DNA of 54,442 bases, from positions 1-54,442 of the IMG/VR virus record IMGVR_UViG_3300013005_000022. One strand, written 5' to 3'. The notes beneath the pieces are model-generated. The model was not told the DNA's origin. It made no database searches and worked only from the letters and a program-made list of their open reading frames with translations. Every line of letters begins with the position of its first letter. The first letter of the stretch is position 1. The DNA comes from a virus. Shown here piece by piece: positions 6,669 through 52,257 of this stretch. Position numbers and translations under genes: made by a program.

Positions 6669-6971
6669 ATGGAAATACCTAATTTTGAAAATTTTATCAA
6701 CGAAGGAAAAGTTACCATCAATAAAATGAATTTCACCATACATGTATTCAACGATACTAAAGGGTTATCTGTTCAATTTATTCCGGATAGTAAAACTCTA
6801 GATAAATTTTCAAAAAATGAAATGGTTGAATCTATTAAAACAAAACTAACCTCAGCAATGCCTAAATTTGCGGATTCTCTATATTTTGCAATAGATAATT
6901 CAGCTGCTGGTTTAAGTTTCCGTGTTGATACATTTGAATTAAGTGAAATAATTACAAAAGCTATTAAATAA
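6669..6971 (+). CDS. Small protein with capsid-targeting-type N-terminus
   Basis: 100 residues of unknown function. The N-terminus is MEIPNFENFINEGKV. The NFENFINE stretch matches the aromatic-x-x-F-hydrophobic-x-E pattern of T4 internal-protein capsid-targeting sequences, and INE fits the gp21 (L/I)xE cleavage site. The remainder is a small alpha/beta protein with no motif I recognise. It is preceded by a late-promoter-like box and its stop shares a base with the next ATG. I infer that it is packaged in the head; the sequence does not prove this. Confidence 0.6.
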   Translation: MEIPNFENFINEGKVTINKMNFTIHVFNDTKGLSVQFIPDSKTLDKFSKNEMVESIKTKLTSAMPKFADSLYFAIDNSAAGLSFRVDTFELSEIITKAIK

Positions 6972-7336
6972 TGAAAACATTCAAAGAATATCTTATAGAA
7001 ACTAGCACTTTCTCTGAAGAAGAAATCAAGGCTCTTAATGAGAACCTTAAGACTGAGCTAACTGAAGAAGAAGAAGCTAAAGTAGACAAAGCTATAAAAG
7101 AATTTTGTAGTGAATACCTAGACAAAAATAAAGGAATGAAATCTTTCAATGAAGATCTAACTAATGAAGGTTTCTTGGGATCTATCTTAGGAGGTCTAAC
7201 CGGTTTTGCATTGGGTTCATCGGTTGGTAAAATCATTGCAAACGTATTGGGTATTGAAAAAGGTGTGATTTTCGATCTTCTAACTAGTAGATTAGTTGGT
7301 GCTGCATTAGGTGCTGCATTAGGAAAACGTCTATGA
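6971..7336 (+). CDS. Tagged protein with glycine-zipper hydrophobic C-terminus
   Basis: 121 residues. It begins MKTFKEYLIE, almost the same pattern as the T4 internal-protein tag (MKTYQEFIAE as I recall it). An acidic helix-rich stretch follows. Residues 56-66 read MKSFNEDLTNE, a second tag-like site. The last 55 residues are Gly/Ala-rich and hydrophobic (GFLGSILGGLTGFALGSSVG), as in membrane-inserting glycine zippers. Cleavage after E66 would free this peptide. A role as a packaged membrane-active protein is inference. The end overlaps the resolvase start by four bases. Confidence 0.6.
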   Translation: MKTFKEYLIETSTFSEEEIKALNENLKTELTEEEEAKVDKAIKEFCSEYLDKNKGMKSFNEDLTNEGFLGSILGGLTGFALGSSVGKIIANVLGIEKGVIFDLLTSRLVGAALGAALGKRL

Positions 7337-7950
7337 TAATAGGAATTGACTTTTCAATTAATAGTACTGCCGTATCTATAAACGACGAAGGTAAATACAC
7401 ACTTTTCTCATTCGTTCCAAATTTCCAATCAGGTAAAGCGGCATTCCGTACTCATGATGCAATTGACAAAATTGTAACTATTGTTAGTTATGAAAAGACG
7501 GCAAATACCAAAGATAGTCTAGAGGATCAACGAATAAAACTTCGTAATGCCAATCGTTTATCCGACCAAATCATTGAACATATTAGACCTTACTTAGATA
7601 AAGCAGAATTTATCAATATAGAAGGTTATTCATTTGGATCTAAAGGAAATTCCTTTATCGATCTAATTACCTATAATTCATTTCTAAAAGTAAAAATTCT
7701 ACAAATCTGTGGAGAGAAGACTTGGGTTTGGCCACCTAAATCTATTAAGAAGATGTATACCGGTAATGGTAATGCATCAAAATGTATGATGGTTACCCGT
7801 TTCATGGAAGATTCTAGTCCTCTTAGAGATAAAATTTCTGAACTTGGATTTGTCCAAGAAGGCGAATTCGCAATCCCAAAACCTATCGATGATATCGTCG
7901 ATGCGGTAGCCCTATCTAGATTAAACCCTATCACCCAATCCATCATATAA
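7333..7950 (+). CDS. RuvC-like Holliday junction resolvase
   Basis: 205 residues with the RNase-H-like resolvase pattern. GIDFS gives the first acidic residue (D6), IEGYSFGSKG the second (E97), and DDIVDAVALS near residues 186-193 the final Asp pair (D186/D187, D190). KKMYTGNGNASK sits where resolvases have a conserved basic loop. Such enzymes cut branched DNA. In T4 the unrelated endonuclease VII (gp49) clears branches before packaging, and I infer that this enzyme takes that role here. It overlaps the preceding tagged gene by ATGA-type coupling. The family call is good; substrate preference is untested. Confidence 0.75.
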   Translation: MIIGIDFSINSTAVSINDEGKYTLFSFVPNFQSGKAAFRTHDAIDKIVTIVSYEKTANTKDSLEDQRIKLRNANRLSDQIIEHIRPYLDKAEFINIEGYSFGSKGNSFIDLITYNSFLKVKILQICGEKTWVWPPKSIKKMYTGNGNASKCMMVTRFMEDSSPLRDKISELGFVQEGEFAIPKPIDDIVDAVALSRLNPITQSII

Positions 7951-7971
7951 GTAGATAAAGACTGTATTTGC

Positions 7972-9801
7972 ATGAAAATTAATATCATAACTAGGCTCAC
8001 TCGACCTGAGTACATAAAAGACGTATGGAAGTCGATTGAAGCTTCTCGAATAAAAGATGTTCAAATAGATTGGTATGTTATAATTGACATACTAGGAAAT
8101 TTCTCTGTTTCATCGGAGATCTTTCGTTTCCTGGAAGATAAAGCGGATTCAGTTATTATTGAAAAGGGAAAACCTGATACATTCGGATATACCCTAATCA
8201 ATAAGCTAATAGATGTTTTACCTGACGATGAATGGATATACATTCTAGACGATGATAATGCAATACACTTAGATTTTTTCCAAACCGTCAAAGATCGAGT
8301 AAACAAACCAGGTATCTGGGTATTCGATCAATTAGTGGAAGGAAAAGACTTCACTGGTGTACATATCAGAGAAGCTAATATAGAAAATATGAGATGGCAA
8401 GGAGTTGACGTTGCCCAGTTACTTATACACAAAGGCTCAATGAATCCTCATAGATTCCACTCTCATTATAGTGGAGATGGATATTTCATAGATGCGATTA
8501 AAGCAGACAAACCAGAAGTATTCAATTTTATCAACGAAACTCTTACTCATTATAATTACTTTCAAAAACCCAAGCTCAATAAAAAACTTCCAAGAATCTT
8601 ATTGATACATGACCAAGATGTTGAGCTTTTATCTAACAACCCTCCTTATTTTGAATGTAAAGAACTTACCGTTAAACGTTGTGAAGCTTATGATGAAAAG
8701 GTTGTTTCTGAATTTAACCCTGATTGTATAGTTACTATCGGTGGTGATTGGTCAGATTATCCACAACTTTCGAGTTCATCATTTGACTTTAAACAAAGAT
8801 GGTTACATTTTTCTGAATACACTCCAGAAATAGGAGAAGAAGCCTATCAATGTGCAACATCATATATCCTTAATAGAAAAGATGATGAACCTCTTTTAAG
8901 TATCATCACTCCTATTTACAATACCGGAGATAAGCTAAGAAGAACTTACAACTCAATCAAATCACAAACCTACACAAATTGGGAATGGGTAATTGTAGAT
9001 GATTCAACTGATGAATATACCACTCGATTAGCTAAAGAAATAGAATCAGAAGATCCTAGAGTAACCGTGTATCGAATACTTCCTATTAGTGGTGGAATTA
9101 TTGGTGAAGCTAAATATCGAGCATTCATGCTTTCTCGAGGAGAAATCTTAATGGAAATGGATCATGATGACGAACTTCACCCAGAAGCAAATGAATACAT
9201 CGTTAAAGCTTACAGAAAATATCCTGATGCCGGTTTCTATTACTCTGATTGTGTTGAGATAAATGAACAACATGAATCTTTAACTTATGGACCAGATGGA
9301 ACATGGGCTTTAGGTTATGGTAAATATTATGACTTTACTCATAATGGAAGAGAATACAAATCCGTCGATCAACCAAACATCAATCCACTTACAATACGTC
9401 ACATCGTGGCAGTTCCAAATCACTTTCGTGCATGGCGAAGAGATGTTTATTTAGCAATAGGATCGCATAATAGAAGACTATCAATAGCCGATGATTATGA
9501 GTTAATTGTTAGAACTTTCTTACATACCAAAATGGTACACATCCCAAAACCTCTTTACTTCCAATATTATCATGGAGGAAATTCTCAGGATGATGGTAAT
9601 GCTAGAGCCGACATTCAAAGAAGAGTAAGATCCATTTCAGTATTCTACAATTGGGAGATACGTAATCGTTTTAAAGAACTAGGAGTAGAAGACTGGGCTT
9701 TTGTTGATACTAACTGGCCTTGGTACGAAAACCCTAGATTCGGTGAGGAAGAGAATTATGTTAATTACTTATTAGATATAAGTGAGAATGAAGGAGAATG
9801 A
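7972..9801 (+). CDS. Two-domain glycosyltransferase (GT-A / GT2 type)
   Basis: 609 residues. The N-terminal part (1-180) looks like a GT-A fold, with WIYILDDDNAIH placing a DDD motif at 93-95. A middle part (about 200-290) begins RILLIHDQDVELL. From residue 307 there is a classical family-2 domain: LSIITPIYNTGDKLRRTYN, WEWVIVDDSTD, and the metal/sugar-nucleotide DxD motif in EMDHDDELHP (D397-x-D399). It probably transfers sugars from nucleotide donors in the cytoplasm. The target could be virion protein, phage DNA or host surface glycan, and the sequence does not decide. It sits between the resolvase and a LamG adhesin, which favours modification of a virion component. Confidence 0.75.
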   Translation: MKINIITRLTRPEYIKDVWKSIEASRIKDVQIDWYVIIDILGNFSVSSEIFRFLEDKADSVIIEKGKPDTFGYTLINKLIDVLPDDEWIYILDDDNAIHLDFFQTVKDRVNKPGIWVFDQLVEGKDFTGVHIREANIENMRWQGVDVAQLLIHKGSMNPHRFHSHYSGDGYFIDAIKADKPEVFNFINETLTHYNYFQKPKLNKKLPRILLIHDQDVELLSNNPPYFECKELTVKRCEAYDEKVVSEFNPDCIVTIGGDWSDYPQLSSSSFDFKQRWLHFSEYTPEIGEEAYQCATSYILNRKDDEPLLSIITPIYNTGDKLRRTYNSIKSQTYTNWEWVIVDDSTDEYTTRLAKEIESEDPRVTVYRILPISGGIIGEAKYRAFMLSRGEILMEMDHDDELHPEANEYIVKAYRKYPDAGFYYSDCVEINEQHESLTYGPDGTWALGYGKYYDFTHNGREYKSVDQPNINPLTIRHIVAVPNHFRAWRRDVYLAIGSHNRRLSIADDYELIVRTFLHTKMVHIPKPLYFQYYHGGNSQDDGNARADIQRRVRSISVFYNWEIRNRFKELGVEDWAFVDTNWPWYENPRFGEEENYVNYLLDISENEGE

Positions 9802-9930: not shown

Positions 9931-9945
9931 GAATTAAGATATAAT

Positions 9946-10992: not shown

Positions 10993-10995
10993 AAT

Positions 10996-19562: not shown

Positions 19563-20219
19563 ATGCCATCAACCTCTATTGCACAACAAAGACTTATGGG
19601 TCAGGCTTACGCTCTCAAAACAGGAGAGCTTAAGTCTTCCGACTTAGATCCTAAATATCGTAAACAAATCGAAGATCTAGCCGCATCAATGTCCGAAAAA
19701 GACCTTAAAGATTTTGCTGAAACTTCACATAAAGGTTTACCACAAAAAGTAAAAGAAAATTATAAAATGAATAGACACGTTCCTACATTTGAATCATTTA
19801 TTAATGAATCAATTGATCGATTAGAACTTGACGAAGCCATTAAAATTAAATCAGGAACTGGACCATTCTATAAATACACCAGAGATCATAAATTAATCGA
19901 AAAGATTTTTAATGAGGCATTCAACGGTCAAGAAGATAAATTGCATAGTGCAAAATTCTTTAATACTGGTGCACCATGTATCAGATTTGAATTAAAAGAT
20001 AGAAGTGACTGGATGTTAATTTACTATCCAGGTCAAACTTATTTAGAAGATCATGGTTTAGGCAGTATTTCATTATATCCATACGGTCCACAAGAAAAAC
20101 GTTACGAAATTTTCTCGGTTGGTGTAAAAGGAAACCGAAAATTTGGTGATACCAAAATGACACCAGCTGAACTAAGAGATGCTACAAACGAACTTAAAGA
20201 TTGGGCATCTAAACAATAA
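19563..20219 (+). CDS. DUF3008-like domain joined to a tagged protein
   Basis: 218 residues in two parts. Residues 1-60 (MPSTSIAQQRLMGQAYALKT, then KDLKDFAETSHKGLP) match the small DUF3008-type phage/bacterial protein, which usually stands alone. Residue 69 is a Met (ATG 19767) that begins MNRHVPTFESFINE, a capsid-targeting tag in the middle of the frame, followed by a 135-residue domain (FYKYTRDHKLIEKIFNEAFN, ...DWMLIYYPGQTYLEDHG). Either two genes have fused in frame, or an internal start makes the tagged protein. Both may happen. Function unknown. Confidence 0.55.
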   Translation: MPSTSIAQQRLMGQAYALKTGELKSSDLDPKYRKQIEDLAASMSEKDLKDFAETSHKGLPQKVKENYKMNRHVPTFESFINESIDRLELDEAIKIKSGTGPFYKYTRDHKLIEKIFNEAFNGQEDKLHSAKFFNTGAPCIRFELKDRSDWMLIYYPGQTYLEDHGLGSISLYPYGPQEKRYEIFSVGVKGNRKFGDTKMTPAELRDATNELKDWASKQ

Positions 20220-38699: not shown

Positions 38700-39575
38700 A
38701 TGAATCATTTACCAACATACTCGGATTTTATTCTAGGTCCTCCAATTGCTTTTGACGGAAACGGATTAAGAGTTGGACAATCAATAGTTGCTGCCGATGG
38801 TTATTCCGGTATTATAGTTTCAAGAGAAATGGTTAACGGACAAATTATGTTCAGAGATCATTTAGGTGTACATCATTTAGTTGAGGCTTGTGATGTTGTT
38901 ATCGATGAAGCTATTAATGAAGACCTTCAATGGTGGGAAGTAACCAAAGGGATACTTGCTGCTGATGCAATTAAAAGCGGAATGGCTATTGCCGGTGGAG
39001 GACTTGCAGTTGCTGCATTAATGTTCTCTAATTGGTTTCATAATATCACTTCAAAAATGGCAACTGCTAGAAAAGATGCTAAATTAAAAGCTGCCGCTGA
39101 AGCAATTGCAGTTAAATTTAATGAAGATACTGAATTAAATGGAATGATGAAAAAACTTCAACAATTCCCTTATATGAAACCTCTTATGGCTTCGAAAAGA
39201 GAAGCTGCTAAGATTGCTGCCAATAACAAAGAAAGATCAAAAGTCTTAAGAGAAATTGCTAAATATGTAAAATCTAAATTAACTCCAGAAGAAACTGAAT
39301 TCTTTGTTGAAGTTAATAAAATACTTAAATCTCAACCACTAGCTACTAATGATGGAGAGAAAGTAGAAGAAGATTTGCAACAAATGGCTGATGCTGTTTT
39401 AGATCCATCTAATTCTAATGCAGAATCTTCTATTAATAAAGATCCAAATAGAACTGTTGGTACCGGAACTTATACTTCCACAACCTCAGATCCAAATCCA
39501 ACAACTAAAGGTTTATTCAAAACTACTGATTCTGCATCCGGTGGTTGGAGTCCTTTTTTGACTACTTCTAATTAA
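38700..39575 (+). CDS. Protein with central hydrophobic Gly/Ala-rich segment, tagged-type
   Basis: 291 residues. The N-terminus MNHLPTYSDFILG has the aromatic core of the tag but lacks the Glu. A small KOW/SH3-like part follows (GLRVGQSIVAADGYSG, IMFRDHLGVHHLVEACD). DEAINED at about 74-80 is a possible cleavage site just before a hydrophobic stretch (about 83-113: GILAADAIKSGMAIAGGGLA, then VAALMFSNWF). Helices and a Thr/Ser-rich disordered tail complete it. A packaged, membrane-active role is inferred. Confidence 0.55.
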   Translation: MNHLPTYSDFILGPPIAFDGNGLRVGQSIVAADGYSGIIVSREMVNGQIMFRDHLGVHHLVEACDVVIDEAINEDLQWWEVTKGILAADAIKSGMAIAGGGLAVAALMFSNWFHNITSKMATARKDAKLKAAAEAIAVKFNEDTELNGMMKKLQQFPYMKPLMASKREAAKIAANNKERSKVLREIAKYVKSKLTPEETEFFVEVNKILKSQPLATNDGEKVEEDLQQMADAVLDPSNSNAESSINKDPNRTVGTGTYTSTTSDPNPTTKGLFKTTDSASGGWSPFLTTSN

Positions 39576-40537: not shown

Positions 40538-41017
40538 ATGCGCTCAATAAAAGGAAACAAACCAACTAAGAAATCAGGTTTCGTTCAAGGATATTTCCCT
40601 ATCCTAGAGTGCAAGAAATACTTCGGTAATGGACCAATCATTTACCGATCATCATGGGAAAAGAAATTTTGCTTATATTGTGAAAGGAATCCGGAGATCA
40701 TACAGTGGTCTTCGGAATCGCTTTCTATTAAATATTTCAATCCTCTCGACGAAAAATATCATACATATTTCCCAGATTTCGTTGTTAGAACAGCAGATGG
40801 AAGAACCATCATTGTTGAGGTTAAACCTAAGGCTCAATTAAAGAAGCCTAATCCTCCTAAAAGAAAAACTCCAAAACAAATTGAAAGTTATAAATGGGCA
40901 TATTCGGCATTTGTTACGAATATGTGTAAGAAGAAGTATGCTGAAGAGTTTGCTAAAAATAGAGGTTGGGAGTATATGTTGGTAACTGAAGATTTTTTCG
41001 CAAAAACTATTAATTAA
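40538..41017 (+). CDS. 4: Head completion protein / nuclease-fold (gp4-like)
   Basis: 159 residues (T4 gp4 is about 150). gp4 finishes the filled head before tail joining. Matching segments: YRSSWEKKFCLYCERNPEII with QWSSESLSI, PLDEKYHTYFPDFVVRTADG, RTIIVEVKPKAQLKKP. The PDF-x12-EVK layout is that of a TnsA/restriction-type nuclease fold, so nuclease activity is plausible. It is close to the portal gene, in the head-gene region. Confidence 0.8.
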   Translation: MRSIKGNKPTKKSGFVQGYFPILECKKYFGNGPIIYRSSWEKKFCLYCERNPEIIQWSSESLSIKYFNPLDEKYHTYFPDFVVRTADGRTIIVEVKPKAQLKKPNPPKRKTPKQIESYKWAYSAFVTNMCKKKYAEEFAKNRGWEYMLVTEDFFAKTIN

Positions 41018-41745
41018 TGAAAGCGCTTATAGATGTATTTGAAATGCTCATTGGTCTTATCAGATTACAAGGGAATGAGAATCCAGAGACACCTCAATCA
41101 GAAGGTATTGATGATGCGTATCAATGGTTTCTAAATACTCTAAAAGACGTTCGAAATAAGAGAGTATCAGAAACAAACGATAATGCACTTAAGCCCGGAA
41201 AGATTTATGTTTTTCGATACGATCCGAAATTTAAGAATGTATTAGATTATTATGACATGAATCCAATCGTTATTGCTTTAGGTCAAGTGATGACAGAAAA
41301 TGGAAAGTTAGAAGTTGGTTTAAATATTAGTTGGTATCCACCTAAAGCTAGAAAATATATTATTGGAAAGATACGAGAGATGTATAAACCCATATATGAG
41401 GCTGCCATTAAAAGATCACCATACAATGGCCAAGAGCAAGCATTCGTTCCTATTGATCTTTATGCACTTAAAGTTGCATTAGATAAAGCTGGACTTTCAT
41501 GGGCAATACGAACATATATACCAGATCTTATAAAGACAAAAGTTGTTGTTTGTTATGAAGACTGGGAAATCGTTTCTCGAATGGATAAACCGAAAATTAT
41601 CCCTCAATTTCAAGGTAAAATTTCTTTATTTGATGTATATAAAGGATTCGAATTATATGTGAGAGATCAAACTACTAATGCCGCTAAGAATGCACAGAAA
41701 AGAGAGAAGGCGAAAAAACTAAATAGATATAAATTCATAAAATAA
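41017..41745 (+). CDS. Conserved virion-module protein, function unknown
   Basis: 242 residues, starting on the last base of gp4. Segments such as LKPGKIYVFRYDPKFKNVLD, YDMNPIVIALG, VGLNISWYPPKARKYIIGKI and ISLFDVYKGFELYV recall a family seen in other T4-like phages with an FxYDPK...GLNxxxxPP pattern, but I cannot name its role with confidence. A highly basic C-terminus (AQKREKAKKLNRYKFIK) suggests DNA or RNA contact. Being next to gp4 and before the portal, it is probably a head or DNA-end protein. Confidence 0.5.
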   Translation: MKALIDVFEMLIGLIRLQGNENPETPQSEGIDDAYQWFLNTLKDVRNKRVSETNDNALKPGKIYVFRYDPKFKNVLDYYDMNPIVIALGQVMTENGKLEVGLNISWYPPKARKYIIGKIREMYKPIYEAAIKRSPYNGQEQAFVPIDLYALKVALDKAGLSWAIRTYIPDLIKTKVVVCYEDWEIVSRMDKPKIIPQFQGKISLFDVYKGFELYVRDQTTNAAKNAQKREKAKKLNRYKFIK

Positions 41746-41808: not shown

Positions 41809-43425
41809 ATGGCAGGATTCGTAAATAGAGAGGAGACTTACGCAGGTAAACCATCCGCATCTTCAAGAAATGTCGTTTCTAAAGCTCTTAAATCGTTATC
41901 ATCTTTTGGGATGATGTACGATGATATGGTGCTTAGAAACTCAAAAGCCATAGGTATCAATGAAGACCGATTCGGTTGGAGACTAGATCCAAGAAATGCA
42001 GCCGGTGGTGAATATGACGATTATGCTCTATTTGCTAACCTTTCAATGACAGATATTAATCTGCGTAAAAGTATTTCTATTTTTGACAAATCTTATATTA
42101 AAAAGAGAGAAGATCTTAGAAAATTCTCTATCCAAGATGAAATTGAAGAGATTCTCGATACCTTATGTGACGAATGTATCGTCTATGACGAAAAAAATTA
42201 CTTCTGTACACCATTAACTTTTGATGATCAGACACTAGAACCAGAAACTTTAGAGGCTGTTAAGTACGCTTTAGATACAAACTTTAAAAGAGTTTACCAG
42301 TACTTTGGCTTCAATAATGATATTTCTGCTTGGTCTTATTTTCGTAAATGGTTAATTGATGGATATCTCGCATTCGAGATTATCTATAATAAAGAACAAA
42401 CAAGAATTATCGGTTTCAAAGAACTTGATCCAGTATCTTTAGAACCAGGTCTTGATAAAGAAGGTAAGAAAATTTGGAAACAATTTAAAGCTCAACCTGG
42501 TAAAGAAAGAGTTATTTATGACTCACAGCTAATCTACCTTTCATATGCACATGCCAATACCGTAAGTCGTGTTTCTTATGTAGAACGTCTTATTCGTGCA
42601 TTCAACTTGCTTCGTATTATGGAGCACTCAAGAGTTATTTGGGCTACTGTTAATGCCTCATTCAAAACTAAATTCGTTATTCCTGTCGGTGGTAAATCTA
42701 AAACCAGAGCTCGTCAAAGCTTAGGTGTTCTGATGCAAAATTACCGAGAGAATATTGATTTTGATACTGAATCCGGAGAACTTAAAGTTAATGGTAAACC
42801 AATGATGCCTTTCAACAAAGAGTATTGGTTACCTTCTGGGGAAGCTGGTGAACCTACTATCGAGAATATTGGTAATGATGGTCCAGACTTATCAGATACA
42901 GATGCTCTTAAATATTTCCGTGAGAAACTAATTAAAGTATCTAAAATTCCACTTTCTCGTTTTGATATGGAATCTCCTCCATCATGGGAAATGAATGCTG
43001 AAGGTATGACAAGAGATGAAATTAAATTTGGTCGTTTTGTTAATCGTATGCGTTCAGTTTATCAAGAAATCTTGGTAAAACCTTTATGGATTCAAATGTG
43101 TTTAGACTTTCCAGAACTTAAAGATGATGATGCTTTTAAGGCACAAATTGGAATTAAGTTCAATAAATATAACATCTTTGAAGAGATGAAAGAGATTGAA
43201 ATCCTTCAAAAACGATTAGATTTTGTTACTTCAATGAAAGATGGTCTTGTAGAAACCGATGCTAATATGAACGAAATTAAATACTTTGCTTCGGAATTCT
43301 TAATTCAACGTTTCCTTGGTTTATCATCAGATGATATCCGAACCAACAAGAAAATGAAAGAATTAGAAGACGAAGAAAAACTAGCAGCCGCTAAGAAAGC
43401 CGCTGAAGCAACTGGTGGATTCTAA
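41809..43425 (+). CDS. 20: Portal protein (gp20)
   Basis: 538 residues (T4 gp20 is 524). It forms the twelve-subunit ring through which DNA enters and leaves the head. Diagnostic stretches are IDGYLAFEIIYNKEQTRIIG, FKELDPVSLEPG, LIYLSYAHANTVSRVSYVER, RVIWATVNASFKTKFVIPVG, EYWLPSGEAGEPTIENIG, LIKVSKIPLSRFD and EIKFGRFVNRMRSVYQEIL. Complete, with an Ala/Lys-rich C-terminus. It is followed by protease and capsid genes, in T4 order (20-21-22-23). Confidence 0.92.
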   Translation: MAGFVNREETYAGKPSASSRNVVSKALKSLSSFGMMYDDMVLRNSKAIGINEDRFGWRLDPRNAAGGEYDDYALFANLSMTDINLRKSISIFDKSYIKKREDLRKFSIQDEIEEILDTLCDECIVYDEKNYFCTPLTFDDQTLEPETLEAVKYALDTNFKRVYQYFGFNNDISAWSYFRKWLIDGYLAFEIIYNKEQTRIIGFKELDPVSLEPGLDKEGKKIWKQFKAQPGKERVIYDSQLIYLSYAHANTVSRVSYVERLIRAFNLLRIMEHSRVIWATVNASFKTKFVIPVGGKSKTRARQSLGVLMQNYRENIDFDTESGELKVNGKPMMPFNKEYWLPSGEAGEPTIENIGNDGPDLSDTDALKYFREKLIKVSKIPLSRFDMESPPSWEMNAEGMTRDEIKFGRFVNRMRSVYQEILVKPLWIQMCLDFPELKDDDAFKAQIGIKFNKYNIFEEMKEIEILQKRLDFVTSMKDGLVETDANMNEIKYFASEFLIQRFLGLSSDDIRTNKKMKELEDEEKLAAAKKAAEATGGF

Positions 43426-43466: not shown

Positions 43467-45371
43467 ATGAGTCAAAAATATTTGCTCGTACTGGAAAGAT
43501 CCTCTTCTGAATTAGACATCAAAACAGAAGGTGATAATTACGTTCTAGAAGGAATCTTTACAGAGATCGGCGTTAAAAACAAAAACAATCGTATTTACGA
43601 TGAAAAAGAAGTTCTTCCTCACATAGATGAACTTTTACAAAAGGTAAAAGGGAGTAAACTTTTAGGAGAATTAGATCATCCAAAATCTTTTGAAGTTTCT
43701 TTAAAAAATGCATCACATGTTATTGAAGCATTAGATTACGACAAAAACACCAAAAAAGTAATGGGTAGAATTCGTCTACTTAATACTAGTGCTGGTAAAG
43801 AAGCAAAAGCATTAGTTGATGCTGGTATTCCTTTACATATTTCTAGTCGTGCTGCTGGTGTAGTTGAGAATAATGGTCACGTTAAAATCAAAAAAATGTT
43901 TACTTACGATTTAGTTGCAGATCCTGGATTTGCTAATGCTGAATTATCAAGAGTAAATGAAGCATTTGGATTTGAGATGGATGATACATTAGGACTTTAT
44001 GAAATACCTTATGATTCTAAGTTAGCTGAGTCTTTCGAAGATCATGATAAAATTGATGAAAACAAACAAACTCAAAACATAAACAAATCTTCAAAAATGA
44101 ATACAACGGAGAACATTTCAGTTGAAGATTTTAACGAATATACAAAAATCGTTAAAAACGAAATTGAAAACCTTAAAAAACAAATCGCTGAGAGTAACAC
44201 TGATGCTGTAACAGAGAGTAATGAATCTTTGGTTAAGTATACCGAAACTATCGCAAAAAGAGTAAATCAAATCCAAGAAAACCTAGGTTCTTTAAAAGAG
44301 AATTTCGATCACTTGGTATCACACAATGATTACATCGTAGAAAACCTTGAAAAGGTTAAAGATTACGCTGAAATGGTTGGTGAGAAATCAAATCAAGGAA
44401 TTAACTATTCAGAAAAACTTGCTGAATCAGTTGACCACTTAATTGAGTACACTAAAATGGTTGCTGAAAAAGCAGATCATGGAATCTCTTATACTGAGAG
44501 AATCGCTGAATCTCTTGATTCTTCAATCGAATATCAAAACCACGTTACCAAAGAAGTTAATGAGCGTTTTGCTTACCAAACTTACATCAACGAACAAGTT
44601 GATAACATCATTTCCCATACAGATTATATCGTTGAAGGTTGTGATTCTATTATCAAGTACACTGAGTACTTAAAAGAGAACCAATCAAGTTTAACTGGTT
44701 ATATGGACTATGTAGTTAAAGGAATTAACGAAGGAAAAGTTATTACTAACGATCCTACAGACGATAATAAATCAGAAAACGGAAACGAAGATGATTCTAA
44801 AGTAAATGAAGGTGCTGATGCTACTGCTTCTACTGCTACAACTGCTGACGAATTTGAAAAAGAAATTAACTCTAAAGTTGATGCTATTTTAGAATCCGCT
44901 AAAGCTCAAAAAGATGAAGTTAAAAAATCTAAAATGCATTTCTTTAATTTCTTAGCAGAATCAAAAAGAAACGAATTTGAAGCGTTAAATCCTGAAATGC
45001 AAGAAAAAATCGTTGGTCTTTTCGAGTCTACTAAATGGTACGGTTCAACTGATGCTAATAACATTTGGGAATCTGCTTTCGCTAAACCAGTTGCTAAAAA
45101 TGATTGGTTAGCTAATATGCCAAATCGTTATGCTGAAGCTTGGAATTCATTAAACGAATCACAAAAGAATGCTATTAAAGCTCAAGCTTCGGTAAGAGTT
45201 CTTGATACACAATATCAAATCGATTCTTTCTGGTCATCTAGAGATTTAAGAGTTACTAAAGTAGAATCTACTACTCCTGTTGCTCCAATCAACGAATCAT
45301 CTAAGTACGAAACTCCAACTGAATACATGGATACTGTAGCTGCTGAATTAAAAAGAAGATTCAAAAGATAA
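43467..45371 (+). CDS. 21: Prohead protease fused to a scaffold-like domain (gp21-gp22 fusion)
   Basis: 634 residues, three times T4 gp21 (212). Residues 1-195 are the protease: EGIFTEIGVKNKNNRIYDEK, GELDHP with catalytic H71, and HISSRAAG with Ser126/127. It should cut head proteins at (L/I)xE sites. From residue 200 a Gln/Asn/Lys-rich joint leads to Met211 (ATG 44097), then a coiled coil with twelve 14-residue repeats (255-422), an acidic linker and a helical end (TEYMDTVAAELKRRFKR). The second part sits where T4 has scaffold gp22. An internal start at 44097, in an A-rich context like true starts here, could make free scaffold, as lambda C/Nu3 does. Confidence 0.82.
   Translation: MSQKYLLVLERSSSELDIKTEGDNYVLEGIFTEIGVKNKNNRIYDEKEVLPHIDELLQKVKGSKLLGELDHPKSFEVSLKNASHVIEALDYDKNTKKVMGRIRLLNTSAGKEAKALVDAGIPLHISSRAAGVVENNGHVKIKKMFTYDLVADPGFANAELSRVNEAFGFEMDDTLGLYEIPYDSKLAESFEDHDKIDENKQTQNINKSSKMNTTENISVEDFNEYTKIVKNEIENLKKQIAESNTDAVTESNESLVKYTETIAKRVNQIQENLGSLKENFDHLVSHNDYIVENLEKVKDYAEMVGEKSNQGINYSEKLAESVDHLIEYTKMVAEKADHGISYTERIAESLDSSIEYQNHVTKEVNERFAYQTYINEQVDNIISHTDYIVEGCDSIIKYTEYLKENQSSLTGYMDYVVKGINEGKVITNDPTDDNKSENGNEDDSKVNEGADATASTATTADEFEKEINSKVDAILESAKAQKDEVKKSKMHFFNFLAESKRNEFEALNPEMQEKIVGLFESTKWYGSTDANNIWESAFAKPVAKNDWLANMPNRYAEAWNSLNESQKNAIKAQASVRVLDTQYQIDSFWSSRDLRVTKVESTTPVAPINESSKYETPTEYMDTVAAELKRRFKR
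44229..44732 (+). repeat. Twelve tandem 14-residue (42-nt) repeats in the scaffold domain
   Basis: Residues 255-422 divide without gaps into twelve units of 14, consensus x-I-x-Y-T-x-x-(I/V)-A-E-x-x-(D/N)-x. Examples: LIEYTKMVAEKADH, GISYTERIAESLDS, IISHTDYIVEGCDS. The hydrophobic spacing suits a regular coiled-coil rod. DNA repeats have diverged, so the pattern is held by selection at protein level. Confidence 0.8.
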
Positions 45372-45479: not shown

Positions 45480-47099
45480 ATGTACTTAATTAACGAAAGT
45501 GAAATTTTTTCAAAATGGGCTCCAATTATCGAGTCTAATACTGGAATCACTGAGCGTTCTAGAGTTGAGTGGATGTCAAAATATTGCCATAACCACGAAT
45601 TATATGAGAACAACTCATATGCTCAACTAGGCGCTGTGAACGGTATGGGTGCTACTCGTTTCCCTGGAAACCCTGGTACTCAAGATGCTTTTGACACTCA
45701 AACTACAGGTTCTGGTGATAAAGCTCACACATTGCTACCTCTTGCTATGCAAGTTGCAGCTCAAACAATCGGATTGGACTTAGTTCCAGTTGTGCCAATG
45801 CCTGGTCCAATGGGTGTTTTAACTTATTTGGATTTCGTATATGCTGGTGGTAAAACTGCTGGTACTGGTGCTGATGTTCCTTTGATGGTTAAATTGAACT
45901 ACGGTTCTAACACAATCCCAGGATTCACAGTAGGTGGTTCAGGTGCTTCAGGTGGTGCTACTTTCTACATGGTAGGTTCTTCTCGTCTTGACGGTATGCC
46001 AATCTTACGTGTTGCTGGTACTCTAACAGGTTCTAACACAATCGTAGATTGCTTAACTAACATCACAATCGGTGGAGCTTCTGCTGGTACTACTTCTAAC
46101 TATTCAGTTGAATTAGTTAAAGCTCTAGAAGATCACATCACTGGTTTCTCTGGTCAAGCTCTTGCTAACAACGACTACACTGGATTCGATATTAACGATC
46201 CATATAGCCGTAACGAAGGTGAAAGTACTGCAGATAACGTAATGAACTTAAGTCTATTCAACAAATCAGTTGAAGCTAAGACTTTCCAAGTTGCTGCTGC
46301 TGTTACTCGTGAGCAAGTTCAAGACTTGAAACAATTCGGTATCGATGCTGTATCTCAAGTAGAAGCAGTTCTTATCAACGAATTAACTCAATCAATCAAC
46401 AAGAACATTCTTGCTCGTATCTTCGCTCTAGGAGAAAGAAACCACGAATACGTAATCCGTACTCAAGGTCAAAACTTCTTCTTGAACTTAGGTGCTACTG
46501 CTGCTCTAGTTTCTTCAACTAGCACTAACTCTCCTGCATCTAACTTCGGTGCTTACATTCAATCAACTACTTTACGTGGTGCTACTATGGCTGCGACTGA
46601 AAACGTTAACTCTGCTTCAGAAAACTTACATACTCGTCAACGTAAAATTATGTCTAAAGTATTAGCTATCGCTAACTTAATCGCTATTAGAGGTCGTCGT
46701 GGACCAGCTACTTTCGTAGTTACTAACGGTCAAGTTTGTTCAGCTTTACAAGACGTTGCTGGATTCGTACCTGCTCCAATGGCTAACACAATTAACCAAA
46801 TGAGTGGTTCACTTTACCCAATCGGTACTTTAGCTGGTTTGGCAGTGTATAACGATCCAAACATGAACTGGTCAGATACTCGTATGTGTATCGGACGTAA
46901 AGGTGACGGTAACTCTCCAGGGTTAGTGTTCATGCCTTACTTAATGGCTGAAAGTGTTCAAACTATCGCTGAAGGTACTATGGCTCCTAAAGTTGCGGTT
47001 AAATCTCGTTACGCTTTAGTTGAAGCTGGTTTCCACCCAGAAACTATGTACTTAACTTCAGGTGTATCGTTGAACAACGCATTCGGTTCACTTGCTTAA
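45480..47099 (+). CDS. 23: Major capsid protein (gp23)
   Basis: 539 residues (T4 gp23 is 521). Builds the head lattice. The N-terminus (MYLINESEIFSKWAPIIESN) is a helical propeptide; a gp21-type site LYE lies at residues 41-43, after which the mature arm would begin NNSYAQLGAVNGMGATRFPG. The body shows AAQTIGLDLVPVVPMPGPMG, FQVAAAVTREQVQDLKQFGI, EAVLINELTQSINKNILARI and the C-terminal VKSRYALVEAGFHPETMYLT, all as in gp23. The gene uses more C-ending, cleaner codons than its neighbours, fitting high expression, and ends in a strong terminator. Confidence 0.93.
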   Translation: MYLINESEIFSKWAPIIESNTGITERSRVEWMSKYCHNHELYENNSYAQLGAVNGMGATRFPGNPGTQDAFDTQTTGSGDKAHTLLPLAMQVAAQTIGLDLVPVVPMPGPMGVLTYLDFVYAGGKTAGTGADVPLMVKLNYGSNTIPGFTVGGSGASGGATFYMVGSSRLDGMPILRVAGTLTGSNTIVDCLTNITIGGASAGTTSNYSVELVKALEDHITGFSGQALANNDYTGFDINDPYSRNEGESTADNVMNLSLFNKSVEAKTFQVAAAVTREQVQDLKQFGIDAVSQVEAVLINELTQSINKNILARIFALGERNHEYVIRTQGQNFFLNLGATAALVSSTSTNSPASNFGAYIQSTTLRGATMAATENVNSASENLHTRQRKIMSKVLAIANLIAIRGRRGPATFVVTNGQVCSALQDVAGFVPAPMANTINQMSGSLYPIGTLAGLAVYNDPNMNWSDTRMCIGRKGDGNSPGLVFMPYLMAESVQTIAEGTMAPKVAVKSRYALVEAGFHPETMYLTSGVSLNNAFGSLA

Positions 47100-47799: not shown

Positions 47800-50277
47800 A
47801 TGATGACTAAAAATCTAGAAAATCTTATTAGAGAAGAGTATCTAAGTGCTCTGTATGAACAACAAATAATAGAGAATTTATCAAATACTGAAATCGATAC
47901 ATTATTCAATGAATTTATTTCTGAAGTATCTGAACAATTCGATTTTGAAATTCCTGAAGAATCAACTATCGAGGAGATTTTAGAATCTTTCGAAGATTGG
48001 GATCTTACGGAAAATGAATCATACACAAAACTAATAGAGGCTATTGGTAAACGTCCGAGTGCTACAAAAAGAAAGCCGACAAAACCAAAAAGACCTATGG
48101 CGAATAAGCCAAAACCTAATCAGAATAAACCTAAGCCAAAACCTAAGGCTAAACCTGAACCTAAGGCTAAACCTGAACCTAAAAAAATGGATGTTAAACC
48201 TAAAGGGGAAAAGCCAGAAGGTAAAAAACCTGAAGGTCCTACTAAGGCTGAAAAGGAAGAAAAGATATCAGCCGAGAAGCAAAAGATTAAAGATCAAATT
48301 GATTCTCTTAATACTCAAAAGGATTCTCTTCAAGGAAAAGATGATAACAAATCTCGTGAATTAGAAACGAAGATTAAATCTCTAGATGCAGAAAAAACTA
48401 AATTAACTGCAGTACAAAAGAAAGAATCCGGAGATGAAAAGGCTGGTGATTATGCCAAATTATCCTCTCTCAAAAAAGCAGAAGCTGATGCATATGCTGC
48501 ATGGACTAAAGTTAAGAACGAAACATCGGAATCTGTAACTGAAGCAGAAGATGAAGAAGTTGAAGCTAGTACCAAAGAAGCTAAAATTAAATTCTTAAAT
48601 GCTCGTATTGCAACTCTTAAACAACAAGAGGCAATGGCCGATTCCCCTGAAGGAAAAACTAAACAGAAAGAAGCCGTTGCTAATGCAGAAAAAGAACTTG
48701 TCGCTTTAGGTGCTGAATCTACTGACGGTGAATCTACCGAAGAGAAAGAGAAATCTCTTAAAGATGTTAAGAAGGAAAATGCAGAACTTAATAAACAACT
48801 TAATACTGCAAAAACCGAAAAACTTAAAGCTGATAATAAAGTAAAAGAGATCAAAGATCAAATTGCTAATGAACAAGATCCGGCTAAGAAAACCGAACTT
48901 AATAAACAACTTAATGCTGCTTCAGAAGAGGCATCGATAAAAGGTAATGAAGTATCTGAACTTCAACCAAAGGTTGATGATTCTGATGAAGAATTAGAAG
49001 CCGCAAAAGAAAAAAGCGGTGGATCTGATAAAGATAAGAAAGAGAAGATATCTGCTGCCGAAAAGAAGATTGAAGATATTAATTCTAAACTAGAATCAGA
49101 AGAAGATCCGGAAAAAAGAGATATTCTTAAACAAAAACGAAAAGAAGCAAAGGCAGAACTTGCTAAACTCACTGGTAAAGAAGCAGAAGAAGATACTGAT
49201 TCTGAATCTGATAGAATGCAAGATGAATTAGTCAATAAGAAAAAAATTGAGGCAATTCAAACTAAAGTTGATGAACTTAACGATCAATTAGCTGCAGAAA
49301 AAGATCCAGCTAAAAGAAAGTTAATTAAAGATAAAATCAAAAAAGAGAAAGCCGAAATATCTAAACTTAAAGGCGAAGAACCCACTGAAGAAGAACCTAG
49401 TGATGATGAAAAGGCTGCTGATACTGAAGCGGAAAATGCAGATAAAATTGCAAAACTTGAAGCTGAACTTGAAAAACTAGAATCCGATGCCGATTCTAAA
49501 GTGTCCGCTCATGAAGAAGCAGTACAGGCTCAAATGAAAAAAACCAACGATATAGTTGGTTGGAATTTAATGCTTAAGAGACTTGCTACTCGTATGAGAA
49601 TGGAAAATATGGTTGAGTATAACAACGCTAAAATTCAACTTGCTTCTCCTGATCTAAAAGACAAATTAGAAGAAAAAGATAAAGAACTTGAAAAACTAGT
49701 TTCTCAAGCAGATGAAGATCTTAAAAAGGCAGAAGATGAAAATAATAAAGAGCACGCTAAAGATCCAGAAGTTAAAGATGCTCAAGCAGTTGCTGATACC
49801 GAAGAAGCTGAAGGAGATACTCAAAAACCGAGCGGATCTTCTAAATCTAGTGAAGATGACGTTGAAGCTAAATTTGCTGCACAGAAAAAAGCTAGAGAAG
49901 ATGCCGAAAAGGCTGCTCAAACTAAAGGAAGAAATGCCGATATTGAAGCTAAAGGAAATACTCCACAAGAAAAGGCCAAAGATTACTCTATTAAAAAATT
50001 AGAAACTAAAATATCTGCTATTTCAACTGCATGGCAAAAAATGCAAGATGATGCTAGTAAAGCTAAAGGTAAAGATAAAGAAAAATTAGATATGAAAGCT
50101 TCGGCAATCGAGAAAAATCTTAATCTTGCTAAGGAAGAGTTAACCAAATTAAAAAGTGGATCTTCTACACCAAATGAATCATTTGAAGATTTTGAATCTG
50201 GTGTTTGGGCAATCGACTTTATCCTAGAAAGAGTTGAAAACCAAATGAATGAATATCAATTCTTAATTAGCGAATAA
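47800..50277 (+). CDS. Large charged coiled-coil protein with Lys-Pro region
   Basis: 825 residues. Residues 1-80 form an acidic helical head (MMTKNLENLIREEYLSALYE, EEILESFEDWDLTENES). A Lys/Pro stretch follows at about 85-150 (KPKPNQNKPKPKPKAKPEPK). About 600 residues of Lys/Glu/Ala/Asp coiled coil come next, with repeated modules built around EEDPEKRDILKQKRKEAKAE and EKDPAKRKLIKDKIKKEKAE. The end (SFEDFESGVWAIDFILERVE, NQMNEYQFLISE) is ordered again. Possible roles are prohead core, tape-like ruler or internal DNA-binding protein. No family assigned. Confidence 0.55.
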   Translation: MMTKNLENLIREEYLSALYEQQIIENLSNTEIDTLFNEFISEVSEQFDFEIPEESTIEEILESFEDWDLTENESYTKLIEAIGKRPSATKRKPTKPKRPMANKPKPNQNKPKPKPKAKPEPKAKPEPKKMDVKPKGEKPEGKKPEGPTKAEKEEKISAEKQKIKDQIDSLNTQKDSLQGKDDNKSRELETKIKSLDAEKTKLTAVQKKESGDEKAGDYAKLSSLKKAEADAYAAWTKVKNETSESVTEAEDEEVEASTKEAKIKFLNARIATLKQQEAMADSPEGKTKQKEAVANAEKELVALGAESTDGESTEEKEKSLKDVKKENAELNKQLNTAKTEKLKADNKVKEIKDQIANEQDPAKKTELNKQLNAASEEASIKGNEVSELQPKVDDSDEELEAAKEKSGGSDKDKKEKISAAEKKIEDINSKLESEEDPEKRDILKQKRKEAKAELAKLTGKEAEEDTDSESDRMQDELVNKKKIEAIQTKVDELNDQLAAEKDPAKRKLIKDKIKKEKAEISKLKGEEPTEEEPSDDEKAADTEAENADKIAKLEAELEKLESDADSKVSAHEEAVQAQMKKTNDIVGWNLMLKRLATRMRMENMVEYNNAKIQLASPDLKDKLEEKDKELEKLVSQADEDLKKAEDENNKEHAKDPEVKDAQAVADTEEAEGDTQKPSGSSKSSEDDVEAKFAAQKKAREDAEKAAQTKGRNADIEAKGNTPQEKAKDYSIKKLETKISAISTAWQKMQDDASKAKGKDKEKLDMKASAIEKNLNLAKEELTKLKSGSSTPNESFEDFESGVWAIDFILERVENQMNEYQFLISE

Positions 50278-50765
50278 TGGAAATCATTAGACAAAATCTA
50301 GGAAAACGTCCAACCAAGTTCGGTATAGTTCTAGATCGACTTAAACCTAGATATCAAAGAATATTAAAGAAGAATCCTATCATTCGTAATTACTCAACGG
50401 ATGATAGGATCCTTAAATGTATCTTCAAAATAGAAGATAGATTAATACAAGTATCTCATCTCAAAAGAGTTTTTATTGAACCTAAAAGCAGAGAAATATC
50501 CACTTTTAAAATCATCAGAGAATCATATCATCAATTCGATTGGAATTGTACTTTTTGCAATAAACCAATCAAATCTCGAATAGATAATTATGAACCAGGA
50601 AACTTTACTTGCACGAAATGCGAGAATACATATATTAAAGGAACTCGAAAAATTCCTAGACGAATAATCGAGGAATCTTTAAGATTCACAGAACATGTGA
50701 AAACTTTAATGAAGACTGATCAAAAGAAAATTATAAAATATATCAAGAAAAATGATGAATCTTAA
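50277..50765 (+). CDS. Zinc-ribbon protein, unknown function
   Basis: 162 residues. A basic first half (LGKRPTKFGIVLDRLKPRYQ) is followed by a zinc ribbon, CTFCNKPIKS and CTKCENTYI, with 20-odd residues between the pairs, then a basic helical end. Nucleic-acid binding is likely from charge and ribbon. It overlaps both neighbours at start and stop, so it is translated with the structural genes around it. Confidence 0.55.
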   Translation: MEIIRQNLGKRPTKFGIVLDRLKPRYQRILKKNPIIRNYSTDDRILKCIFKIEDRLIQVSHLKRVFIEPKSREISTFKIIRESYHQFDWNCTFCNKPIKSRIDNYEPGNFTCTKCENTYIKGTRKIPRRIIEESLRFTEHVKTLMKTDQKKIIKYIKKNDES

Positions 50766-52257
50766 GTACTTCAGTGATTTTGTTAATGAAGCAAAAACTA
50801 CTGACGCAAAAACTGTTAAAAATCCGAGAGTTAAACTAGTACTACTAACGAATGCTAGTAAAGAATCTCATACCGTTCCTTCGTTCGAAGCAGAATGTAA
50901 AAAAATGGGTGTTGAATTCATCGTTATTGATATCAGTACAGCAATGATTGCTGATGGTAAAGACGGTAACTTCTTCATCAGTGATAAAGAAAATCCAAAA
51001 GGCCTTAAGATCAATGCAGATAATACTGCAGTTTTAACTCGTCGTGGAGTTGTTAGAAATACTTATACAAAATCACTAGTTGAGAAGTTAGAAGATAATA
51101 ACTTCTTTGTTGTAAATACACTTGAAGCTATTATGGCTTGTGAGAACAAATATGTTACTACAAAAATCCTTAAAGAAGCTGGACTTCCAGTTCCTAAAAC
51201 TGCTATTGTTGATGGAGAAGACTCTATTGAAAGAGCGGTTAAAGATGTTGGTGGTAAATTCCCAGTAGTTTGTAAAATCCTTTCTGGATCTCAAGGAATT
51301 GGAGTTTCTATTGTAGATTCTCTTGCCTCTCTTAAATCTGTTTTACAGACCATATGGAAAGTTGATCCCTCTGTTGAAATCTTGATTCAAGAGAAGATCG
51401 AATCTGAATACGATTTAAGAATACACGTTTTGACGAGAAAATTCAACTCGCCAACACCAGAAGACACCGATTCGGTACTTCTTGGTTACATGAGAAGAAA
51501 TCGTGTTAAAAAAGACTTCCGTACTAATTACTCTTTAGGCGGAACCGTTGAAAAAACTAAAGTAACACCAGAACAAGAGAAAATAGCTATCGAATCAGCT
51601 AAGGCTGTTGGTTGTAATTGGTGTGGAGTTGATATTATCGTAGATAAGAAAACTGGTGCTAATTACGTTCTAGAAGTTAATGCTTCTCCAGGAACTACTG
51701 GTTTGAAAAAAGCTACTGGTGTTAACGTTGTTAAAGATATCGTTCAATTCTTAATGGATAAAACCAACTGGATTCGTTCTAGAAAACGTGTTGGTTTCCG
51801 TGAAGTAATTCAGATCCCTAATCTTGGTGATGTGGTTGCTAAATTTGATACTGGTAATGGATCTCTTTCTTGTACACTTACATACGATAAAATAGATGTT
51901 AATGAAAAAGAAAAACTAGTTAAATGGACTTTAGGTAAAAGAGATTTTGAATCTAAATTTGTCGGATTCACCGAAACCGAAGTTGGTGATACTGTAGAGA
52001 AACGTCCAGTTATTGAAATGGATATTCAATTTGCTGGTAAAGTATACAAGAAAGTTCCGGTTGCATTAGATGATCGTTCTACCAAAAGTACTAAATTCCT
52101 TGTGAATCGTAAATTCATGGAGAGAATTGGTTGTTCAGTAGATCCAATGAGAACTTTCGTGGTAACTTCATTTCCTGAAGATTATCATGGTGGAGAAGCT
52201 AAAAAGGATCCACATGCAGGAATTATCTTTGAATGGGATAAAAAGAAAACTAAATAA
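50752..52257 (+). CDS. Tagged ATP-grasp ligase fused to a RimB-like aspartic protease
   Basis: 501 residues in three parts. Residues 1-13, MMNLKYFSDFVNE, form a capsid-targeting tag with a VNE cleavage site. About 30-335 is a RimK-like ATP-grasp domain: CENKYVTTKILKEAGLPVPK, FPVVCKILSGSQGIGVSIVD, SEYDLRIHVL, YVLEVNASPGTTG (E308, N310 as metal ligands). It would join an amino acid to a carboxyl group using ATP. About 345-480 resembles the retropepsin-like ATP-dependent zinc protease/RimB domain: VAKFDTGNGSLSCTL with catalytic D366, KRPVIEMDIQFAGKVYKKVP and CSVDPMRTFVV. A ligase and a protease in one packaged protein suggests addition and removal of peptide tags. Confidence 0.78.
   Translation: MMNLKYFSDFVNEAKTTDAKTVKNPRVKLVLLTNASKESHTVPSFEAECKKMGVEFIVIDISTAMIADGKDGNFFISDKENPKGLKINADNTAVLTRRGVVRNTYTKSLVEKLEDNNFFVVNTLEAIMACENKYVTTKILKEAGLPVPKTAIVDGEDSIERAVKDVGGKFPVVCKILSGSQGIGVSIVDSLASLKSVLQTIWKVDPSVEILIQEKIESEYDLRIHVLTRKFNSPTPEDTDSVLLGYMRRNRVKKDFRTNYSLGGTVEKTKVTPEQEKIAIESAKAVGCNWCGVDIIVDKKTGANYVLEVNASPGTTGLKKATGVNVVKDIVQFLMDKTNWIRSRKRVGFREVIQIPNLGDVVAKFDTGNGSLSCTLTYDKIDVNEKEKLVKWTLGKRDFESKFVGFTETEVGDTVEKRPVIEMDIQFAGKVYKKVPVALDDRSTKSTKFLVNRKFMERIGCSVDPMRTFVVTSFPEDYHGGEAKKDPHAGIIFEWDKKKTK

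Follow-up and report, generated by a model that had tools for sequence, protein, structure and literature searches.

The closest described counterparts of the genes treated here are the internal proteins of phage T4. As set out in the accessible part of a review, residues 4 and 7 of the IPIII leader serve mainly targeting and residues 8 and 10 processing, and the leader is suggested to let T4-like phages add cargo (PMC9026906). Among T-even phages at least 10 varied internal proteins stand behind one leader, and Ip1-3 inhibit type IV restriction enzymes, according to the available portion of a second source (PMC12373910). Here we describe a family of N-terminal tags in a stretch of viral DNA comprising bases 1-54442 (the window) of the 160,448-base virus record IMGVR_UViG_3300013005_000022, the remainder of which was analysed as well. 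A first-pass annotation of the window had noticed at least twelve genes that start with or contain a common pattern; all ten N-termini that it quoted were found in plus-strand open reading frames (ORFs), each starting from an ATG, and by our own count the window has 13 tagged genes. Judged from sequence, the tag probably acts as a propeptide for capsid targeting, like the leaders of the T4 internal proteins, and would free cargo for ejection.

As a strict pattern we used [FY]xx[FY][LIVM]xE, starting at residues 3-11, with start codons assigned by rule. It was found at the N-terminus of 18 of the 229 plus-strand genes of the record, minus-strand ORFs being excluded from this count, while 500 residue shuffles of the first 40 positions gave a mean of 0.39 and a maximum of 2. 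Eight of these matches lie in the window (0.29 expected) and ten outside it (0.25 expected), so that the excess holds also in sequence unseen by the first-pass annotation. Inside the window the pattern occurs at 8 of 683 N-terminal and at 7 of 16,289 internal positions (Fisher p 3.3e-8), and the corresponding figures for the rest of the record are 10 of 1,871 and 4 of 29,499 (p 4.5e-10). Part of the internal background is probably genuine, since three of the 11 internal matches in the record are located in the protease-scaffold protein discussed below and one is the copy within gene 19563 (genes are named by their first base). With the inclusion of longer-spaced forms, such as those ending in VTHLNE, VVNE or DVNE, and of the one internal copy, the total of tagged genes rises to 27 for the record, of which 13 belong to the window; note that the longer-spaced class was set partly by eye, and that the 9 of the 27 that are not strict N-terminal matches were judged by eye. 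In the 18 strict proteins the leader is 10-15 residues long and typically reads M-K-x-(I/L)-x-(T/S)-(F/Y)-x-(E/Q/D)-F-(L/V/I)-N-E. A motif-free test returned 22 of 233 ORFs of the record with at least three N-terminal lookalikes, and none after shuffling.

The conserved columns of the tag are the four mapped residues of T4 IPIII. In the T4 record, two proteins with a strict leader begin with MKTYQEFIAE, placing Y4, F7, I8 and E10 in the same columns, and residues 59-65 of T4 gp23 (FGSFLTE), which we take to be the known cleavage site used in maturation, match the strict pattern as well. The junction was analyzed in 186 unique tags from this record, from two relatives (G001 and G002) and from portal loci of further relatives. 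In 145 of them the residue following the conserved glutamate (P1') is S, A, N or G, against a background of 25%, and the same preference is seen in 13 of the 18 tags of this record alone (p 3.4e-5). P2 is an asparagine in 147 of the 186, and P3 may be a valine besides leucine or isoleucine. Columns not fixed by the pattern are informative too, namely L/I three residues before the first aromatic, T/S directly before it and E/Q/D before the second, and right past P1' the information drops to about 0.6 bits. Such a sharp end of conservation one residue past the glutamate is expected of a protease site, and the sequence at the tag end would fit cleavage after the glutamate of (L/I)xE. The tag itself is probably a helical leader; in a structural model of the Acb1-like protein described below, residues 1-18 have a predicted local distance difference test (pLDDT) score below 50 and most of the body scores above 90.

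The window also encodes what by its sequence is a protease of the kind that cuts T4 internal proteins, fused to a repeat-bearing part (Table 1). An alignment of 23 sequences shows an invariant H71 in a GELDHP segment and an invariant S126/S127 in an SSR segment. The first of these, GEL[DN]HP, is common to this protease and T4 gp21 (GELNHP), and gp21 presumably possesses the SSR segment as well. All of 15 records contained a match to the protease, and phrog_207 was matched in 14 of 18, the other four possibly being fragments. The major capsid protein carries a matching HELYE followed by N or S, and HELYE is present in 26 of the 30 homologues listed. The first-pass proposal of a capsid-targeting tag of the T4 type is thus supported by the four IPIII residues, by the presence of a T4-type protease in the window, by the junction-like conservation, and by orthologous enzymes that keep (V/I/L)xE while their leader changes.

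In the prohead, we envisage, the short leader would dock a protein into the scaffold core as this grows, perhaps by imitating a single copy of the 14-residue repeat of the scaffold itself. Once the shell is complete, the head maturation protease would cut scaffold, capsid protein and tags after the same glutamate. The freed cargo would then reside inside the head, leave it together with the DNA and become active in the new cell straight away, and several of the cargoes are probably counter-defence or host-takeover enzymes.

Table 1. Tagged genes and head genes of the window; P1' is the residue that follows the leader.
Feature	Coordinates	Strand	Leader	P1'	Remarks
Tagged protein, 100 residues	6669..6971	+	MEIPNFENFINE	G	Strict motif; absent from the first-pass list; no PHROG match at 1e-3, no Pfam match at 0.05
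Tagged protein, 121 residues	6971..7336	+	MKTFKEYLIE	T	Strict motif; G002 homologue keeps tag
Tagged protein, 208 residues	11173..11799	+	MKHIQHFDDFLNE	V	Strict motif
Weaker tagged candidate, 66 residues	16451..16651	+	MAILKFKQFRNVRNE	A	Longer-spaced form, by eye
Tagged protein, 85 residues	17892..18149	+	MKAIPEFNKFKEDVNE	A	Longer-spaced form
Tagged protein, 340 residues	18539..19561	+	MKLLNFNEFVTHLNE	S	Longer-spaced form
DUF3008 domain, then in-frame tagged protein	19563..20219	+	MNRHVPTFESFINE	S	Leader from ATG at 19767; DUF3008 3.2e-11; strict motif from residue 76
Tagged protein, 102 residues	20230..20538	+	MTNNYIPTFESFVNE	S	Strict motif; alternative in-frame ATG upstream at 20179
Tagged protein, 250 residues	35531..36283	+	MSIKSYDEFVNE	H	Strict motif; similar tagged genes upstream of portal in many relatives
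Tagged protein, 133 residues	38276..38677	+	MYAIKTYSEFINE	G	Strict motif
Degenerate tag, aromatic part without Glu	38700..39575	+	MNHLPTYSDFILG		Not among the 13
Tagged protein, 100 residues	39626..39928	+	MKNLMSFDEYVVNE	A	Longer-spaced form
Tagged protein, 190 residues	39950..40522	+	MKNLKTFAEFVLE	S	Strict motif
DNA end protector (gp2-like)	41017..41745	+			phrog_429 9.6e-26
Portal protein	41809..43425	+			phrog_213 2.4e-72
Head maturation protease fused to repeat-bearing putative scaffold part, 634 residues	43467..45371	+			phrog_207 4.6e-43; scaffold role of C-terminal part inferred
14-residue tag-like repeats, residues 281-420	44307..44726	+			Strict motif at residues 370 and 398; third copy at 492, beyond this stretch of repeats
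Major capsid protein	45480..47099	+			phrog_138 2.5e-36; predicted cut HELYE43/N44
Tagged RimK-like ATP-grasp enzyme, 501 residues	50752..52257	+	MMNLKYFSDFVNE	A	Strict motif; RimK PF08443 8.7e-34; phrog_2599; junction conserved in orthologues

Outside the window, tagged genes start at record positions 74487, 74705, 75181, 79523, 118227, 123815, 125780, 126364, 126649, 127004, 127951, 128853, 130416 and 139599. Within it, the glutamate of the tag is replaced in the gene at 38700-39575 (MNHLPTYSDFILGPP), likewise in the relative G002; this protein is possibly targeted yet uncut, or its tag may be decaying. A DUF3008 protein is apparently split, its N-terminal part extending from 19563 to about 19766 and its C-terminal module, with an NGMG...GSGD segment, lysines and FKKFNDFIKG, from 20541 to 20777. 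Both parts form a single protein in G001, and here two tagged ORFs lie between them, as if tagged cassettes had been inserted. The 78-residue protein encoded at 20541-20777 shares the segment NGMGA..PGNPGTQ..TGSGD with the capsid protein (45480-47099), where it is found just past the predicted cut, and this may be a second way of binding the shell. Downstream of the capsid gene, positions 47800-50277 encode an 825-residue protein rich in lysine and glutamate, a candidate second core protein, for which there was no match to PHROG at 1e-3 or to Pfam at 0.05. The reading frame at 27261-28469, within 26341-28469, appears to start in the middle of a domain; it may encode the C-terminal portion of a DNA polymerase of family B, perhaps from a split gene.

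A megablast comparison of bases 24000-48000 with the phage collection returned no close relative, and the distant DNA matches include an uncultured huge phage, Lak phages and T-even uvsX. Ranked by portal protein, the best matches are LR756500 and other uncultured huge phages, Sphingomonas phage PAU, Lak phages and Tenacibaculum phage PTm1. The portal relatives suggest a host among the Bacteroidota, yet the recorded host of PAU is Sphingomonas. The portal loci of relatives, 80 in number, contained 136 N-terminal matches where 6.7 would be expected, each set of identical proteins being counted once, although some loci had none at all. Four relatives are rich in strict tags, G001 with 44 of 450 ORFs, G002 with 31 of 353, G008 with 24 of 343 and LR756500 with 20 of 530, while the same scan gave no significant excess in T4 (3 of 273, p 0.067), P-RSM4 (1 of 264), PTm1 (2 of 320), PAU (0 of 302), G011 (0 of 426) and G014 (1 of 400). 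T4, PAU, PTm1 and G011 were read whole, and the bases read in the others were 293,000 of 294,034 (G001), 254,000 of 254,393 (G002), 254,000 of 256,444 (G008), 312,500 of 322,477 (G014), 176,000 of 176,428 (P-RSM4) and 390,500 of 462,018 (LR756500). Note that orthologues are not independent, such that counts over relatives overstate the number of events, whereas counts within one record are far less affected. The first-pass annotation had called for a search of the tag across the whole genome and related phages and had expected a cargo larger than that of T4; at the level of genes this was borne out, with 27 tagged genes here, 18 of them strict, and 20-44 strict tags in each of the four relatives, as compared to 3 in T4.

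The motif-free test extended this picture to other forms of leader. Lookalike ORFs amounted to 62 of 436 in G001 (1 after shuffling), 42 of 344 in G002 (0), 28 of 331 in G008 (1), 22 of 298 in PAU (1) and 22 of 386 in G014 (0), as compared to 0 of 305 in PTm1 (1) and 0 of 251 in P-RSM4 (0). The 14 of 413 in G011 (0) are mixed and include signal-peptide-like starts, and the 6 of 267 in T4 (0) are apparently homing endonucleases. The leader form in PAU is MKT(L/I)xxL(Y/F)E, and many leaders in G014 resemble MK(I/L)xITE. At positions 1932-15419 of PAU (locus L088), about a dozen neighbouring genes carry the PAU form, and two of their products, gp142 and gp154, were deposited as 'internal capsid protein', a label behind which we found no paper. 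A change of leader is directly visible within one enzyme family. Among 52 complete Acb1-like ORFs, 15 have the aromatic tag and 14 (L175, L181-L186, L188-L194) have other leaders that, by eye, end in (L/I/V)xE immediately ahead of the body; the other 23, for the most part more distant, usually lack a leader or show a stub. Among the 25 RimK-like ORFs, of which several are near-identical, 24 keep a (V/I/L)NE junction followed by A (by eye) while the leader varies, and the exception starts off the contig. Other lineages, as far as sequence can tell, are using other leaders, which we refer to as dialects. The first-pass view of the tag as a portable address holds with two additions, the existence of dialects and a docking partner that is possibly the scaffold repeat. 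In T4 itself (NC_000866), a 54-residue ORF on the minus strand at 18966-19130 starts with MKTFKEFIKE, a strict leader match, and may be an overlooked internal protein or a chance occurrence.

Behind the tag the proteins differ. Bodies of 25 tagged proteins of this record fell into 25 clusters at E 1e-3; this clustering omitted 39626 and 79523, and the tag ends of 16451, 17892, 125780 and 19563 were entered by hand. Genes 39626 and 39950 share a PGKxY segment by eye, so that there is at least one related pair, and apart from it the first-pass statement that the bodies are unrelated agrees with this result. When five records were pooled, 154 bodies gave 98 to 105 clusters depending on the cut-off; an earlier single-linkage clustering had chained 98 of 231 bodies, after which the spurious minus-strand ORF 47044 and the weak ORF 60528 were excluded. 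When 118 tagged proteins from four relatives, none shorter than 90 residues, were aligned, only M1, F10 and E13 proved to be conserved at 90% over 1,364 columns.

Several of the bodies resemble enzymes. In addition to RimK, the protein encoded at 50752 shows a sub-threshold Zn_protease match, and gene 79523 encodes a glycosyltransferase of family 2. A cytidylyltransferase-like protein is encoded at 125780, perhaps, as we take its motifs to indicate, a nicotinamide mononucleotide adenylyltransferase (NMNAT). The gene at 139599-140162 of the record encodes an Acb1-like 2H phosphodiesterase (PF23474, 31.8 bits against a cut-off of 27, with 2_5_RNA_ligase2 above its cut-off too), in which two HxT motifs, H63/T65 and H138/T140, are invariant among 29 sequences; in a Foldseek search with its model, the best solved neighbours were phage Acb1, a poxvirus cGAMP phosphodiesterase and Usb1, and LigT was retrieved alike. 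In the relatives, a tagged 254-residue protein of G008 matches the Thoeris inhibitor Tad3 and lies one gene away from a tagged Acb1-like gene, a tagged protein of LR756500 matches polynucleotide kinase 3'-phosphatase (PNK3P), and among the matches listed (25 of 32 families) are GNAT, KTSC, LRR and AAA/zeta-type domains. The Acb1-like and Tad3 genes of G008, with one tagged gene between them, belong to a run of 15 consecutive genes at 193196-200277, of which 13 are strictly tagged and one is a near-match. Taken at face value, the Acb1-like, Tad3, RimK-like, cytidylyltransferase-like and PNK3P matches suggest that the cargo includes pre-loaded counter-defence.

The repeats of the protease protein raise the question of how the leader might dock. 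A 14-residue repeat such as DSIIKYTEYLKENQ contains the unit Y-T-E-Y-L-x-E, and the regions beyond residue 200 of 44 unique protease homologues hold 162 strict motifs as compared to 3.0 by shuffling, spaced by 14 residues (47 times) or 28 (20 times). An AlphaFold2 model of the protein (mean pLDDT 59) supports just 'long helices' in the repeat part. Because these repeats carry the motif of the tag, the tag may be a scaffold repeat that has become detached and by which cargo docks in the core, an idea that is less certain than the targeting role itself. Only a little short of an even chance, in our estimate, falls to the rival view that repeats and tags are alike merely since both hold a protease site on a helix, without mimicry of the scaffold: [LIV]xE is needed in both, coiled coils repeat in sevens, and T4 has tags without such repeats. 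As T4 targeting depends mainly on residues 4 and 7 and processing on residues 8 and 10, however, the aromatic pair should be dispensable for the cut; it nevertheless precedes 162 of the 1,082 [LIVM]xE sites in the repeat part, whereas 36 of 3,410 such sites have it in the other proteins encoded by this record, G001 and G002, an enrichment with an odds ratio of 16.5. Further results weigh against mimicry. A position weight matrix derived from the tags scores the best repeat here at 10.4 bits, and 5% of tags score below 17.9. The T4 scaffold gene has no strict motif in spite of the aromatic tag of T4, and mimicry is consequently not a general rule. In LR756500 the repeats are degenerate, with 2 strict motifs left. 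Finally, the phages that combine tags with aromatic repeats constitute one protease-scaffold lineage, so that their co-occurrence counts as approximately one event, and since no clear dialect-matched scaffold repeat was found in PAU, G011 or G014, the mimicry idea draws solely on the aromatic lineage.

The targeting role of the tag has to be weighed against other accounts as well. An origin of the likeness in chance, composition or a translation-start bias of an AT-rich genome is scarcely credible. MK-rich N-termini are indeed frequent in phages, but the shuffles, the internal positions, the record outside the window and the control phages, PTm1, P-RSM4, PAU, T4, G011 and G014 showing no significant excess, led us to reject it, and the motif-free test speaks to the same effect. 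It is improbable, too, that the leader targets another phage structure, such as the tail, the membrane or a replication compartment, with the glutamate as a binding motif rather than a cut site. A helix with spaced aromatics would be plausible in that role, but the preference for small residues at P1' and the loss of information right after it, the recurrence of the motif in the protease-protein repeats and in T4 gp23, the corresponding site in the capsid protein and the orthologous enzymes that swap their leader yet retain xxE all argue for processing. Of greater weight, although still unlikely, is the possibility that entry into the head and cleavage do occur but that the tagged proteins are mostly structural or core-building, staying in the head or leaving as fragments, with few injected effectors among them. 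Some tagged genes adjoin the portal, protease and capsid genes, many relatives have a 35531-like gene upstream of the portal gene, a recurrence to be expected of a core head gene, and several tagged bodies are acidic and of unknown fold. Some bodies, on the other hand, are enzyme-like without an obvious structural role (RimK-like, Acb1-like, cytidylyltransferase-like, glycosyltransferase, Tad3, PNK3P), and tagged genes turn over more than others against G002, where 19 of 27 tagged as compared to 169 of 193 untagged genes have a homologue (p 0.035); with G001 as the reference no such difference emerged (18 of 27 as compared to 105 of 193, p 0.30).

Some results speak against the reading of the tag as a capsid-targeting propeptide of ejected cargo. 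The net charge of 23 genuine tagged bodies ranges from -15 to +11, several being acidic, while T4 internal proteins are basic; basic bodies are usual for the latter but unnecessary for targeting, as foreign proteins get packaged. A Pfam match above cut-off was obtained for 5 of the 27 tagged proteins of the record, one of them solely to DUF3008, leaving most bodies unmatched, and PADLOC found no match at 1e-4 among the 118 tagged proteins. The open-licence PubMed Central (PMC) literature yielded no usable virion proteomics of a relative; for the virion of MA9V-1, the accessible part of the report describes sodium dodecyl sulphate polyacrylamide gel electrophoresis and no mass spectrometry (PMC10537231).

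Taking the capsid-targeting reading further, we see about an even chance that in this phage group, and in relatives with other dialects, the head is a general cargo vehicle whose address is a detached scaffold repeat, such that any gene gaining some 13 codons would be loaded. One virion would then deliver dozens of effectors before phage genes are expressed, including enzymes against cyclic-nucleotide immunity (Acb1-like) and against immunity based on nicotinamide adenine dinucleotide (Tad3, perhaps the NMNAT-kind cytidylyltransferase). If true, a short leader readable in the sequence would suffice to tell which proteins a phage takes along into a new cell; each genome would have dozens of them, mostly of unknown function. 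Likely RNA-end-repair enzymes and inhibitors of Thoeris and of the cyclic-oligonucleotide-based anti-phage signalling system (CBASS) would be placed in the particle, able to act before host defences are triggered. Docking by a copied scaffold repeat would be a testable idea on capsid targeting, and the leader a possible portable tag to load chosen proteins into phage heads.

Other systems package proteins in the head, and in the accessible parts of the open-licence PMC literature we found the T-even version of the leader, but no report of its expansion, of dialects or of a likeness to scaffold. Papers on jumbo-phage and virus conflict systems treat packaged effectors and 2H enzymes, and in their available portions not this leader (PMC7824862, PMC9503650); the corresponding portion of PMC12363816 holds nothing on leaders. 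The giant phages of the phiKZ type, represented by SPN3US, likewise have many head proteins that are cut after glutamate and ejected into the host. As far as the accessible text goes, the propeptides of SPN3US are mostly 111-254 residues long, with two of 20-24, in nine substrates that have no one shared short tag, in contrast to the strict leaders of 10-15 residues described here (PMC5694885, PMC10052503). The MuF-fused and polyvalent effectors, to judge from the part of the source at hand, resemble the present genes in that a packaging module is joined to varied effector domains (PMC9503650). There the module is a fused head domain, whereas the leaders found here span 10-16 residues and are probably cleaved off, and neither a MuF nor a portal Pfam domain was found at E 0.05 in 30 proteins of the record (the 27 tagged ones, 38700, 36312 and 47800). 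The variable ip genes of T-even phages are recognised by their leader as well; in the accessible accounts those tested hit one defence family, whereas the matches obtained here point to anti-CBASS, anti-Thoeris, nucleotide-transfer and RNA-end-repair functions. The system remains closest to IPI-IPIII and Alt of T4, which are cut by gp21, and with which it has in common an N-terminal leader of 10-20 residues, four key residues, a T4-type protease and unrelated bodies. It differs in the number of tagged genes (27, of which 18 are strict, against 3 strict ones in T4), in its recognisable enzymes, in the fusion of the protease to tag-like repeats and in the leader dialects. We therefore infer a much expanded variant of T4 internal-protein targeting, in which the address is of the same type but the cargo is several times larger and comprises likely counter-defence enzymes, the leader has dialects, and the motif of the tag recurs as a repeat in the protease-scaffold protein.

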